A stretch of 37,171 nucleotides of DNA from contig CAIXSY010000216.1 of assembly GCA_903922175.1 (NCBI GenBank), positions 1 to 37,171 on the forward strand, read 5' to 3'. The position numbers were made by a program, and so were the translations under genes. Under the pieces are notes generated by a model. That model was not told the DNA's origin, did not search any database, and saw only the letters and a list, made by a program, of their open reading frames with translations. This document shows positions 30,720 through 36,782 of this stretch, one piece after another; the stretch's first letter is position 1, and each line of letters starts with the position of its first letter. The stretch comes from an uncultured delta proteobacterium. GTDB taxonomy: Bacteria; Bdellovibrionota_C; UBA2361; CAIXSY01.

Positions 30720-31466
30720 TTATTCTGACTTCTTTTGTTCCGCCTCTTTCTTCTCGATTTCCGCGAGAATCTTCTGTTCCATTTTTTGGCGGATGCGGTT
30801 GCTGACGCCGGCATATTTCTTGGTTTGAAAGATCTGCTTGGGAACAGGGGCTTCCTCAAACGTTCTCATGGCGATCTCAAGGTACGTGGCCATCTTTTCG
30901 GGATCAAGGTCTTTGAACATGGCGCACGTATCGCGGAACTTCTTCATCGCCATGCCGACTTCCATCTTACATGACTTGATGTAGGAGAGCTGGTCTATCT
31001 GCCCGACGACTTCATGCACCATCATGGCGAGGGCGGTCTTTTCGCGTGCGACCGAGCGTTCGGCTTTAACTCGGGCCGAGATGCGTGTCATTTCAACAAG
31101 GAGGTCGACGGAGTAAGGTTCAAAGAGGAAGCCATCGGCCCCGATCATTACATTTTGCGCAACCGTGGAGGCATCCTGGTCCTTCCCCTGCAGGACGAGG
31201 ACGTATGCCGCATCTTGACCGGGCTTGGTTTCCTTAGCCTCTTTGATGAATTGAGTAACATGGGCCTTATCTATACGGTAGGAGATGAAGATGACATCGA
31301 AGGCGTCGCCGCTCTTAAGCTTAAAGATGGCTTCTTGGGGATCGACGACCTGGGTAATCTTCCCGAAGTTGTAGACCGAGCTCATGGCCTGCTTCAAGCG
31401 GATGCGCGAATCCATGTCGGCGTCAACAACCAAGGCATCGTATTTCTTCTCTGTTTTAATGGCCAT
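30720..31466 (-). CDS. Degenerate receiver-domain protein, 248 aa
   Basis: Residues 9-130 follow a response-regulator receiver fold: the acidic VVDADMD (D15, D17) and GADGFLFEPYS at the end. The phosphoacceptor Asp is replaced by Ser62 (FDVIFISYRI), the conserved Thr by Gln (VLVLQGK), and the Lys by Glu116 (FEP for TKP). It is therefore probably a pseudo-receiver that cannot be phosphorylated. Residues 130-248 are a helical charged output domain (long EKTALAMMVHEVVGQIDQL, a run of Lys/Glu at the end), of no recognised type. The start ATG has no strong ribosome site. No histidine kinase is adjacent. A protein-protein adaptor role is inferred. Confidence 0.8.
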   Translation of the reverse strand: MAIKTEKKYDALVVDADMDSRIRLKQAMSSVYNFGKITQVVDPQEAIFKLKSGDAFDVIFISYRIDKAHVTQFIKEAKETKPGQDAAYVLVLQGKDQDASTVAQNVMIGADGFLFEPYSVDLLVEMTRISARVKAERSVAREKTALAMMVHEVVGQIDQLSYIKSCKMEVGMAMKKFRDTCAMFKDLDPEKMATYLEIAMRTFEEAPVPKQIFQTKKYAGVSNRIRQKMEQKILAEIEKKEAEQKKSE

Positions 31467-31792: not shown

Positions 31793-32509
31793 CTACTGGC
31801 CAAGATACGCCGATTGCACCTTGGGATTGAGGAGTAGGTTTTTCCCGCTATCGACGAGCACGATCCTGCCGGTTTCCATCACATAGCCGTGAGCGGCGAG
31901 CGAGAGGGCCAACTGCGCATTTTGCTCGACCACAAGAACGGTCAGCCCTTCGCTACAAAGCTGGCGGATGGTCTCGAATATCTTTTGGGTGAGAATCGGT
32001 GCGATGCCCATCGACGGTTCATCGAGGAGCAACATAATTGGTTTGCTCATCAGTGCGCGCCCGATGGCGAGCATCTGTTGTTCGCCACCGGAGAGGGTGC
32101 CTCCAAGCTGGCTGCGGCGCTCAGCCAGAACCGGGAAGAGTGAAAACACACGTTCTAAGCTGCGCTTAATCTCGGCCCCGTCATGGCATAGAAATGCCCC
32201 CATATCGAGGTTCTCAATCACACTTAAGCGTGGGAAGATCTTTCTTCCCTCGGGAACCTGCGCTAGTCCGCGGCCGACTCGGGCATGAGCCGCTAAATTA
32301 GTTATATCCTCTCCCGCAAAGCTGATCTTTCCAGCGCGAGCGGCGACAATTCCCGAAGCGCAAAGGAGTGTTGTTGTTTTGCCAGCGCCGTTAGCACCAA
32401 TCAGGGCGACGAGCTCCCCGCGAGTAACGCTGAGGCTGACATCGTGGAGCGCTTGTACGGGGCCGTATCCGGCGCACAGCCCCTCGATGTGGAGCAAGCT
32501 TTCAGCCAT
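31793..32509 (-). CDS. livF: LivF, branched-chain amino-acid ABC transporter ATPase
   Basis: Second cytoplasmic ATPase of the LIV-type importer, 238 aa. Walker A IGANGAGKTTTL, Q-loop region (AQVPEGRKIFPRLSVIENL, LivF-typical), signature LSGGEQQMLAIGRAL, Walker B LLLDEPSMGIAPIL and the switch His region VVEQNAQLAL are all present. ATG 32509 is chosen: it overlaps the livG stop by eight bases, as is common in liv operons, whereas the frame's first Met is 10 codons upstream. It is last in livK-livH-livM-livG-livF. Confidence 0.95.
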   Translation of the reverse strand: MAESLLHIEGLCAGYGPVQALHDVSLSVTRGELVALIGANGAGKTTTLLCASGIVAARAGKISFAGEDITNLAAHARVGRGLAQVPEGRKIFPRLSVIENLDMGAFLCHDGAEIKRSLERVFSLFPVLAERRSQLGGTLSGGEQQMLAIGRALMSKPIMLLLDEPSMGIAPILTQKIFETIRQLCSEGLTVLVVEQNAQLALSLAAHGYVMETGRIVLVDSGKNLLLNPKVQSAYLGQ

Positions 32510-33539
32510 GTTCGACTTCCTTGCCAAGGTAGGCCTCAATAACGCGGGGATTGGCGCGAATCTCGTCGGGGGTACCTTCGGCGATCTTATGCCCGTAGTC
32601 GAGTACGGCGATGCGATCGGAGATCTCCATAACGACGCGCATGTGGTGTTCGATCAAGACAATGGTAATGCCCTTATCGCGAATGCGCCGGATTAAGTGG
32701 AGCAGCTCCATCGACTCTTTAGGGTTAAGGCCTGCAGCGGGCTCGTCGAGGAGGAGCAGCCTAGGTTGAGCAGCAAGGGCTCGACCGATCTCCAGTCTGC
32801 GTTGTAATCCATAAGGCAGATTCCCGGCGAGGGTCTCTTCTGATTCGCCGAGCTCGATAAATTCCATAATCCGCCGAGCGCGCACGGTGGCGCGCAGGCG
32901 TTCACGCCAAAAACGTGGCAGGTGTAGTGCCGAGGACAGAAACGAACTTCCCAAACGTACCTGCATCCCCGCTAGAATATTGTCGAGCACGCTCATCATC
33001 GGGAATAGGCGAATGTTCTGGAATGTACGCGAGACACCGAGATAGGTGATACGTTCCGGGGCGCGCCGTGCGGCCAGCCAAAACGACCACGATGCCGCAA
33101 ATCCAAGAATTGCGCCGCAACCAAAGGGGAGAAGTGATGCGTAGGGAGGGAGCTCGGATACAAATTGCCAAAAGTGCGACCAGGCTTGGCCCCAGTGAAA
33201 GGGCTGCTGATAGACGTATAAACTGACGATGATCTGCTGCCACAGGTCCTGCAGGTTAAACGCCAGAAACACGCTGACGCCAACGGCGATGGCAGTGAAG
33301 AGGAATACGATCAGCGTTGCCATCGAAAACTGCGCTGCGGCCTCACGCCCATGGTAGCGCAGCGATCCCTTGGTTGGCTGGTACACGCCGCTGATCACAT
33401 TAAACAGGGTAGTTTTTCCGGCTCCGTTTGGCCCGATGATGGAAAGGATCTCTCCTGCCTGAACTTGAAGCGAGACATTGTTCACCGCGGTGACGCCACC
33501 GAACGAGACGGTTAGATCTTTAAGTTCAAGAATGCTCAT
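32502..33539 (-). CDS. livG: LivG-like ATPase with two-helix membrane insertion
   Basis: First cytoplasmic ATPase of the LIV-type importer, 345 aa against about 255 in the family. Walker [10 protein letters not shown] (36-44), Q-loop RTFQN (171-175), signature [16 protein letters not shown] (from 240), Walker [14 protein letters not shown] (261-273), and the switch IEHHM (296-300) are all in place. Between GSLRYHGRE (58-66) and the normal [18 protein letters not shown] (from about 158) lies a foreign stretch of about 92 residues. It has two hydrophobic helices, about 73-94 ([20 protein letters not shown]) and 133-156 ([20 protein letters not shown]), joined by an aromatic-rich loop ([14 protein letters not shown]). 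Because it is even in number of helices, the ATPase stays cytoplasmic. It starts one base after the livM stop (TAGATG). Start and end are solid; the function of the insertion is unknown. Confidence 0.93.
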
Positions 33540-34562
33540 CTAGCGTCGCCCCTGTGTTGTCGGTCCCAGAATTCCCTCTGGCCGAAAACGCATCATCAGT
33601 ATGAGCACGAGTCCGAAGATCATGTACTTCCAGTTGGTCGGTGAGAGGAATATCGCCGCAGCACTCGAGCTGTCGGAGGTGCCCAAGAAGCGGGCGAGGC
33701 GATCGAGGACGATGGAGTTGATTCCGACCATGATAATGCTTCCCAAGACGACGCCGCGAATGCTGCTTAAGCCCCCGACGATAATGATGCACAGAACGAG
33801 AACCGAGAGGTTGAAGTCGTAATTACCGGGTTCGCCTGTGGAGCTAAAGTAGGAGGCCCAGAGTGCACCGGCTAATCCGGCAAACGCCGCGCTGCAGCTA
33901 AAGGCCAAAAGCTTGGCCCGCACAATGTATATCCCCATTGAGCGCGCGGCGAGTTCATCCTCGCGTATCGCAAACCACATCCGTCCATGACGTGAATGTT
34001 CGAGGTTGTAGCTGATCCAGAGAGTCGCCGCGAGGACTGTTGCCAACAGATAGTACCAGGCGCTGTGGTCGGCGGAGCTTAAGGTGTAGCCAAAGAGTGA
34101 GGGATAGGGCAGGGGGTTAATGCCTTGCGTGCCTTTGGTGATCCCATCAAGGTTCCGCAGCAGATCTTGGACTATCTCTCCGAATCCGAGGGTAACGATG
34201 GCGAGGTAATCACCGCGTAGGCGGATAGCCGGTAATCCCAGCATCAAGCCGGAAGCAGCGGCGCAGAGCATGGCGGCGAGAAGCCCGGGCCAGAAGCCGA
34301 TCTGGAACGGATAAATTGATGAGGTTAGAATTGCATACGAATACACGCCGATGGCCATGAAGCCCGCAGAGCCGAGGTTGAGTAGTCCGCACATCCCGGT
34401 GACGACGTTGAGCCCGAGCCCGATAATGGCAAAGATAAACACCGTGCGCAGTGAGCCGGAGATCTGTAGCGCTGCTGGCAGTGCTTGTTCCCATCCCGGC
34501 AGGGTGAGGAGCCCAGCGCAGAGGAGTGCGAAGAGCGGGTATCTCTTAATTAGCTGTAGCAT
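33540..34562 (-). CDS. livM: LivM, permease of branched-chain amino-acid ABC transporter
   Basis: Multi-pass inner-membrane permease, 340 aa, with eight or more hydrophobic segments. LivM hallmarks are IIGLGLNVVTGMCGLLNLGSA (start of the core), FMAIGVYSYAIL, LAIVTLGFGEIVQ, the ATPase-contact loop WFAIREDELAARSMGI, and the GGLSSIRGVVLGSIIMVGIN segment. Its ATG overlaps the livH stop by one base (TAATG), and its stop abuts the livG start, so translation is coupled along the operon. No frameshift or missing region is seen. Confidence 0.95.
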   Translation of the reverse strand: MLQLIKRYPLFALLCAGLLTLPGWEQALPAALQISGSLRTVFIFAIIGLGLNVVTGMCGLLNLGSAGFMAIGVYSYAILTSSIYPFQIGFWPGLLAAMLCAAASGLMLGLPAIRLRGDYLAIVTLGFGEIVQDLLRNLDGITKGTQGINPLPYPSLFGYTLSSADHSAWYYLLATVLAATLWISYNLEHSRHGRMWFAIREDELAARSMGIYIVRAKLLAFSCSAAFAGLAGALWASYFSSTGEPGNYDFNLSVLVLCIIIVGGLSSIRGVVLGSIIMVGINSIVLDRLARFLGTSDSSSAAAIFLSPTNWKYMIFGLVLILMMRFRPEGILGPTTQGRR

Positions 34563-35524
34563 TAGACCTTCTCCCGCACGCGAGCGCCAAGCAGCCCAGA
34601 GGGGCGGAACACGAGCACCATAATTAAGATCAGAAACACGACGGAATTAGTCCACTGCGTGGCCACGTACTGGTCGCTCATGGCACGAATGATGCCGATC
34701 GCAATTCCGCCGAGCATGGCCCCAGGGAGGTTGCCTATTCCGCCGAGGACGGCGGCGGTGAAAGCATCCATGCCGACACGGAACCCCATCTGGAAGTGAA
34801 GCGAGTTGTTATAGAGCGCATTGACGACGCTGGCCACACCGCCGAGCATACCGCCAAGAATAAAGGTGCGTCCGATAATTTTATTGGTATCGATCCCCAT
34901 CAGTTCGGCAGCGGTTGGGTTTTGGGCGACGGCGCGCATGGCTTTGCCCGTGCGGGTGTATTTGACGAAGATGGTCAGGGCCACAAGCAGCGGGACGGTG
35001 ACGACAAAGACGAGCAGATCTTTGGCTGAAAAGTAGATCACGCTGTCACCAAGTAGATTGTCGTTGGAAAGAAGTGCCGGGAATGACTTCCACGACGAGG
35101 GCGCCTTCCCAAAGCCAAAGACCTCAAGCGGCAGTCCACCCCAGAAGAGGCCGATATTCATTAATATGAATGAGACCCCGATGGCTGATACTAATGGCGC
35201 GAGCCGTGATGATCGTCGCAGCGGCTGATAGGCCAGTCGATCGATGGTCCAATTAACCGCCGCGCAAAAAAGCGGGGTGCTGCAGAGAAGCACGGCGACG
35301 GCGGCAAAATTATTCCCGCCACCGGCATCGGCCGCGGCAAAACCGCAGACACCGACGAGGGTGAGGGCAAAAAAGTTGCCCAACATGAAGAGGTCCCCAT
35401 GGGCGAAGTTGATCAGTTCGATGATCCCGTAAACCATGGTATAGCCGATGGCGATCAGTGCTAGGATCGTGCCATTGGAGAGTCCGGTGAGGAGCTGCTG
35501 CAGAAATACATCGAGGTCAGACAT
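34562..35524 (-). CDS. livH: LivH, permease of branched-chain amino-acid ABC transporter
   Basis: The partner inner-membrane permease, 320 aa. Recognised by FLQQLLTGLSNGTILALIAI near the N-terminus, GYTMVYGIIELINFAHGDLF, LAYQPLRRSSRLAPLVSAIG, the ATPase-contact loop AVAQNPTAAELMGID, and GMDAFTAAVLGGIGNLPGAM. The frame begins at TTG 35536; ATG 35524 is preferred, as family members start a few residues before FLQQLL. No clear ribosome site. It lies 21 bases after livK. Confidence 0.95.
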   Translation of the reverse strand: MSDLDVFLQQLLTGLSNGTILALIAIGYTMVYGIIELINFAHGDLFMLGNFFALTLVGVCGFAAADAGGGNNFAAVAVLLCSTPLFCAAVNWTIDRLAYQPLRRSSRLAPLVSAIGVSFILMNIGLFWGGLPLEVFGFGKAPSSWKSFPALLSNDNLLGDSVIYFSAKDLLVFVVTVPLLVALTIFVKYTRTGKAMRAVAQNPTAAELMGIDTNKIIGRTFILGGMLGGVASVVNALYNNSLHFQMGFRVGMDAFTAAVLGGIGNLPGAMLGGIAIGIIRAMSDQYVATQWTNSVVFLILIMVLVFRPSGLLGARVREKV

Positions 35525-35545
35525 ACGTGCTATCAATAACTTTTG

Positions 35546-36736
35546 CTAATCACCGAGTATTTTGACGAATTCGAACTTCCCGCCCTTCACGGTATTAGCG
35601 CTCATCGTTTTAAGCGTGGTGTCGCCGTTCTCGTCAAAGGACCAGCGTCCGAGGGCACCGTCGAAGTCTTTGGTTGCCGCCACGGCCTGCACAATTGCGG
35701 CGCGATCTTTTTTGCCGGCGCGGCGGATGCCGTCAAGGACAACGCGCATAGCTTCGTAGCCATAGGCAGCATAGCCTTCAGGCTCACTCTGGTAGCGGGC
35801 TTTGTAGGCTTCGTAGAACTTTTTGCCGTTACCTTCGAGCTTCGAGGTCGGAATCCCGCCGAAGGTGATAAAGGCTGTGCCCTCGACGTTCTCCTTCCCC
35901 GCAGCGTCGATGAAGGGGGTTTCAAAGCAGCCGTCGGGAATCATAAACTTAACCTTCATGCCGGATGCTCGTAGATCTTTGACGAGCTGTCCGGCGTTGG
36001 TCTGGGTAGTGCCTCCAAAATACACCAGATCCGGCGCGGTCTGGCGGATTTTTGTGGCCAGTGATCGATAGTTGGCTGCTTTGGGATCGATCCCCTCGAT
36101 GCCTAGTATCTGAATATCATGTTTCGCCGCCTCTTTAATAAAGATGCTGGCGATACCCTTGCCGTACAGCTCGCGGTCGTGCAAGACGAAGGCACGCTTT
36201 ACACCGAGCTCTTTGGCCCAGAGCACAGCGACGTAGCCCTGGATGTCATCGGCGGGGACGACACGGAAGAACGAAACCTTGCCGCTGGGGCGATAGACCA
36301 TCGGCTCGTTGGGCTCGCCGATGCCGGGCTTGGTTAACCCGGGCCAGGTATTAGCTGGGCTTACCATCACCAATCCGGCCTGATTGAGCTTCGGCATCGA
36401 GATCTTGGCGGCGCCGGAATTGTAGGTGCCGATGTAGGCCATCACGTCGGCATCGTTGACAGCGCGGTCAGCGTTAGCCGTCTCGATCGCCGGATCCCAT
36501 GCGCCGCGCTCAGGCGAGGCGTCATCCCAATCCTCATAGCTAATCTTGAAACCGGCAACGCTAGCTCCAACGTCATCGATAGCGAGCTTTATTCCGTTGA
36601 CGATGGAAGATGACTGCGAGTTGGCGCTACCGGTACGCGGTAAGCTCGAGACGATTTTTATGGTCCCGGCCCCCTCGGCCAAAACGCCCGAGGTAATAAC
36701 AAAAGAGGTGAGAAGCGAAAGAAGGAGACGTGGCAT
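35546..36736 (-). CDS. livK: LivK-type substrate-binding protein
   Basis: Periplasmic type I solute-binding protein of the LIV importer, 396 aa. ATG 36736 is chosen because GAGGAATCCT directly precedes it and gives a clean signal peptide, MPRLLLSLLTSFVITSGVLA with cleavage near LAE; the frame's first ATG lies seven codons upstream. Mature features: TIKIVSSLPRTGSANSQSSS at the start of lobe 1, GIKLAIDDVGA, VMAYIGTYNSGAAKISMPKL, SPANTWPGLTKPG (ligand side), and the C-terminal GYEAMRVVLDGIRRAGKKD and KDFDGALGRWSFDENGD. The actual ligand (branched-chain or other amino acid) cannot be told from the sequence. Confidence 0.93.
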   Translation of the reverse strand: MPRLLLSLLTSFVITSGVLAEGAGTIKIVSSLPRTGSANSQSSSIVNGIKLAIDDVGASVAGFKISYEDWDDASPERGAWDPAIETANADRAVNDADVMAYIGTYNSGAAKISMPKLNQAGLVMVSPANTWPGLTKPGIGEPNEPMVYRPSGKVSFFRVVPADDIQGYVAVLWAKELGVKRAFVLHDRELYGKGIASIFIKEAAKHDIQILGIEGIDPKAANYRSLATKIRQTAPDLVYFGGTTQTNAGQLVKDLRASGMKVKFMIPDGCFETPFIDAAGKENVEGTAFITFGGIPTSKLEGNGKKFYEAYKARYQSEPEGYAAYGYEAMRVVLDGIRRAGKKDRAAIVQAVAATKDFDGALGRWSFDENGDTTLKTMSANTVKGGKFEFVKILGD

Positions 36737-36782
36737 AGGATTCCTCGACATGAGCATTGGGTGAAACTAGAAAATACCTATT

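Follow-up and report, generated by a model that had tools for sequence, protein, structure and literature searches.

The livG gene of the window, by which we mean the whole stretch of 37,171 nucleotides analyzed here, encodes an ABC ATPase of the HAAT family (branched-chain-amino-acid type) with an internal insertion, and our analyses support a predicted hairpin of two helices in this insertion that spans the inner membrane. The gene is an ORF for 345 aa (positions 32502 to 33539, minus strand, as are all features of the operon given below), and the insertion comprises residues 66-158 (33066 to 33344). From sequence and structural modeling we lean towards the view that the hairpin is a built-in membrane anchor holding LivG beside the permease subunits LivM and LivH, a docking that we infer. 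A search of the open-access literature returned no description of such a hairpin in LivG, and it appears to be undescribed so far. Since profile searches split around the insertion, sequence-based annotation has overlooked it.

The assignment of the protein to LivG is supported by curated models. The window protein matches Pfam ABC_tran (1.6e-27) and, at its C-terminus, BCA_ABC_TP_C (PF12399, 4.5e-15, above the cut-off), and its best curated model is NCBIfam LivG (PRK11300, 2.9e-80); the score of 269 bits lies below the equivalog cut-off of 362 bits, a shortfall due in part to the match being split by the insertion. UrtD, the ATPase of the urea importer, is the closest sister family by profile (TIGR03411, 1.5e-57, in two blocks), and its model also lacks the insertion. 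Window LivG shares its ATPase motifs, BCA_ABC_TP_C motif, operon position and fold with canonical LivG, as represented by E. coli LivG/PRK11300 and by MJ1267 (1g6h, 1gaj). The uninterrupted soluble ATPase domain of ~255 aa found in canonical LivG is not seen in the window protein, which carries an insertion with two hydrophobic helices, but as this is a trait of typical members and no curated requirement, we filed the protein as a LivG variant.

The operon around livG is complete, in agreement with the preliminary description, as judged from ORFs, Pfam and NCBIfam. The permeases livM (340 aa, 33540 to 34562, with its translation inspected) and livH (324 aa, 34562 to 35536) both match Pfam BPD_transp_2, the livJ-type binding protein (35546 to 36757; Pfam Peripla_BP_6) has the stretch SSLPRTGSAN near its mature start, and the second ATPase, livF (31793 to 32509; NCBIfam LivF, 2e-83), has no insertion; its ORF is open from 32539, with a likely ATG at 32509. 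The binding protein can be aligned to amino-acid binding proteins of known structure, also over the SPA-x-T stretch, and its substrate is therefore likely an amino acid. At 33537-33542, the TAG of livM is directly followed by the ATG of livG in the same frame, and read-through there would give a LivM-LivG fusion.

All the ATPase motifs are present and aligned, so the earlier statement that they are intact stands. Walker A (residues 36-44; 33408 to 33434) is conserved, the Q-loop glutamine Q174 (33018 to 33020) lies in an RTFQ stretch invariant in the alignment, the signature motif LPYGLQ (241-246; 32802 to 32819) is of the normal LivG type, and Walker B with its catalytic glutamate E266 (261-266; 32742 to 32759) precedes the switch histidine H298 (32646 to 32648). 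The latter is followed by H299, giving HHM; the corresponding residues are HDM in most insert-less LivG. This IEHHM (32643-32648), in place of the usual IEHDM, is found in most insert-bearing LivG and also in an insert-less one (L141), and as some insert-bearing proteins have HDM, we rejected HHM as their hallmark.

The position and size of the insertion were established by alignment breaks and by spacing. Pfam ABC_tran, PRK11300 and the PDB structure of MJ1267 (1g6h) all align window LivG in two blocks, breaking at residue 65 and resuming at 159-160, with the second block extending to residue 340 and the region between the blocks unmatched by any of the three sources. This places the insertion between the first (antiparallel) β-subdomain and the strand that runs towards the Q-loop, where canonical LivG has four residues (70-73 in MJ1267) and the hairpin family ~93. 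Walker A and the Q-loop lie 135 residues apart in window LivG but 46 apart in most LivG lacking the insertion, which therefore amounts to a net 89 residues; the spacing is 131-136 in nearly all other insert-bearing proteins (the exceptions are L090, with 122, and L089, with 372). The boundaries first proposed for residues 66-158 proved exact, and the insertion is in frame, as had been claimed.

The insertion is also conserved in independent genomes, and it is common to three groups: the class of the window, Planctomycetota and Hydrogenedentota. In the class of the window, full-length matches identified it in 4 of 46 genomes (the window's own, G044, G007 and G005), while a profile of the insertion detected it in 14/392 Planctomycetota and 6/68 Hydrogenedentota genomes. 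Scanning GTDB contigs with the insertion alone yielded eight loci, from Phycisphaerales, other Planctomycetota, a Kuenenia-labelled MAG, Hydrogenedentota, and MAGs labelled Oligoflexia, Deltaproteobacteria and Proteobacteria, the last three being class relatives already counted. Among ~337 other genomes of the domain, the profile search gave no further genuine match. Three candidates were discarded in the course of these searches: G582, whose match contains stops; G743, which has no Liv genes nearby; and G718, whose match coordinates are identical to those of the Hydrogenedentota genome G826. An assembly error, a frameshift or contamination could be suspected in a MAG with an estimated contamination of 6.8%, but this explanation is refuted by the identical in-frame insertion in many independent genomes, and the response-regulator-like neighbour gene at 30720-31466, typical of the class (found in 28/46 of its genomes, at <=53% identity), argues against contamination. 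The sharing with related genomes that the preliminary description proposed to check is thereby confirmed, and what it named as contrary evidence was not seen.

Every insert-bearing LivG that we examined is encoded in a liv operon, and wherever the contig reaches the binding protein, it is ~54-72% identical to that of the window, compared with 26-32% for the insert-less systems of the window's class. Twenty-three Planctomycetota genomes have this binding protein, and the insertion was found in 15 of them (14 by profile, and G106 by full-length match); no insert-less LivG was seen in that operon among Planctomycetota, with LivG unrecovered or cut at the contig end in the remaining 8/23. The same type of binding protein occurs with an ordinary LivG in G642 (59%), G772 (54%) and G526 (46%), all from other groups.

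We propose that the hairpin was probably gained once, within a single family of importers of the HAAT type (LivJHMGF). In a tree of LivJ, LivH, LivM and LivF, which leaves LivG out, one branch (SH-aLRT 99.4) parts the 27 insert-bearing systems from the three outgroups G642, G772 and G526, requiring a single change. The tree of the LivG core alone is poorly resolved; it requires two changes, and so does a further tree that includes distant outgroups, the pair G084/G106 being the source of the uncertainty. The LivJ+H+M+F tree does not by itself separate gain from loss, but LivG generally lacks the insertion and is ordinary in the three outgroups, so a single gain is the simplest account. The system of the window is closest to those of Hydrogenedentota, is nested among those of Planctomycetota and is patchy in its own class, suggesting horizontal transfer. 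As LivM and LivH of insert-bearing systems have no obvious segment missing relative to insert-less ones, the hairpin is an addition and not a relocated or replacement permease helix. Profile comparisons showed no similarity of the hairpin to LivM or LivH and did not support its derivation from either, and comparison of the insertion with Pfam and PDB gave no credible match.

AlphaFold2, run on a 40-sequence alignment, modeled window LivG with a mean pLDDT of 95.3 and a pTM of 0.88, and with a pLDDT of ~93-98 per ten-residue block in the insertion. The model has the normal LivG fold (Foldseek match to 1gaj, TMt 0.86) with four predicted helices in the insertion. The first, TM1 (residues 73-94; 33258 to 33323), has a small-xxx-small pattern at A83 and G87, two positions that are small across the alignment of 26 sequences. 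The predicted extracytoplasmic loop (33192 to 33254) includes a short helix (96-107) and bears the series W100...Y108-x-Y110...P113-F114-x-W116; a second short helix (116-129; 33153 to 33194) follows. TM2 (132-157; 33069 to 33146) contains a GxxxG motif (G142, G146) and W154, and is followed by R158 at its cytoplasmic end.

The best 19-residue Kyte-Doolittle window of TM1 scores 2.73, whereas the rest of window LivG outside the hairpin does not exceed 1.12 and insert-less LivG proteins reach 0.87-1.87. TM2 is Gly-rich and weaker, at 1.44 over 19 residues, so the earlier claim of two strong hydrophobic segments holds for TM1 and was slightly overstated for TM2. Both helices are weakly hydrophobic in L082, L083 and L143. 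The hairpin loop of the window copy has no K or R, and over 26 sequences, K+R total 79 and 90 in the two 15-residue flanks (means of ~3.0 and ~3.5) versus 50 in all loops together (~1.9 per ~35-residue loop). This bias fits both ends of the hairpin lying in the cytoplasm. Hydropathy, charge bias, AlphaFold2, and the conserved small-xxx-small and interfacial W/R residues support the initial proposal that the insertion crosses the membrane with two helices, leaving its loop on the extracytoplasmic side and the ATPase in the cytoplasm. The four helices could instead form a soluble add-on outside the bilayer, docked against LivF or against the permease from the cytoplasmic side, as the hydropathy of TM2 is borderline in several members and AlphaFold2 models proteins with no membrane present. 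We consider this very improbable given the hydropathy of TM1 in the window copy, the lengths of the two long helices (22 and 26 residues), the positive-inside bias and the interfacial W/R.

The insertion has a mean pairwise identity of 29%, versus 60% for the LivG core, and is under purifying selection, with dN/dS of 0.19-0.41 where dS, which is near saturation, can be estimated. This faster change is expected of a plain anchor, unlike a tight interface, and counts against docking. The hairpin could serve purely to tether LivG to the membrane, with no specific partner, raising its local concentration there ahead of or in the course of its assembly with LivHM. The fast drift of the helix sequences is consistent with this, as are the shorter, atypical loops of L090 and L143 and the tolerance of G363 for a much larger loop. 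The LivG of G363 (L089, 3160-4905) is 581 aa long and retains both helices, with ~235 extra residues between them that have no Pfam match and for which the model, of low to moderate confidence, shows a region of beta-alpha repeats. However, W100 (24/26), F114 (25/26), W116 (24/26), G142 (24/26), G146 (25/26), W154 (24/26) and R158 (25/26) are near-invariant across groups, beyond the needs of a generic anchor, and we regard a tether with no partner as unlikely.

Only 16 residues separate the end of the insertion from the glutamine of the Q-loop, the element that meets the coupling helix of the permease in ABC importers, so the insertion may have a mechanical effect. The best-conserved positions of the loop are aromatic. 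Together with the co-occurrence of the insertion with one type of binding protein, both features would also fit a regulatory or recognition element, in which LivG would sense the outside: the aromatic loop would touch either the binding protein in its loaded state or the outer loops and gate of LivM/LivH, and the hairpin would relay this docking to the Q-loop. G642 and G772, however, pair the same type of binding protein with an insert-less LivG, and we hold both the recognition role and this outside sensing to be quite doubtful.

For the anchor beside LivM/LivH, which we prefer, we envisage the following arrangement. LivG would have gained a helical hairpin of ~89 residues in the loop that joins its antiparallel beta-subdomain to the Q-loop strand, and the two long helices of the hairpin would cross the inner membrane with both ends cytoplasmic, packing through the small-xxx-small motifs and placing W154 and R158 at the cytoplasmic interface. 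On the outer face, a loop of two short helices would bear the W...PFPW motif. LivG would be held permanently next to the LivM/LivH bundle, and the ATPase would keep its attachment and orientation from one turnover cycle to the next.

One of the outgroups has a natural LivM-LivG fusion, which suggests LivM as the neighbour. In G526 (L141, 4313-6604), which shares the binding-protein type, a single ORF of 763 aa joins the two proteins and has no hairpin. LivG is there covalently tied to membrane segments, as with the hairpin, but the tether is a whole N-terminal permease and the ATPase domain is uninterrupted, whereas in the hairpin LivG the ATPase domain itself is interrupted. The LivM stretch SSTGEPGNYDF (33813-33845) is typical of the clade, exceeds its counterpart in insert-less relatives by one residue, and is a possible partner site of the hairpin. 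NBD1 of CFTR likewise has an insertion in the beta-subdomain region of its ABC ATPase domain. Unlike the LivG hairpin, this regulatory insertion is short, soluble and disordered, lies at another position and does not span the membrane.

To our knowledge, the ATPases of ABC importers are regarded as soluble subunits that touch the permease only through coupling helices. If our reading is true, a conserved membrane hairpin inside the ATPase fold, by the Q-loop, would connect the motor to the membrane a second time, and its presence in only one of the two ATPases, LivG and not LivF, would offer a natural handle on asymmetric ATPase function. Should LivG sense the outside, signals in an ABC importer would have a second way across the membrane, through the hairpin, in addition to the coupling helices.
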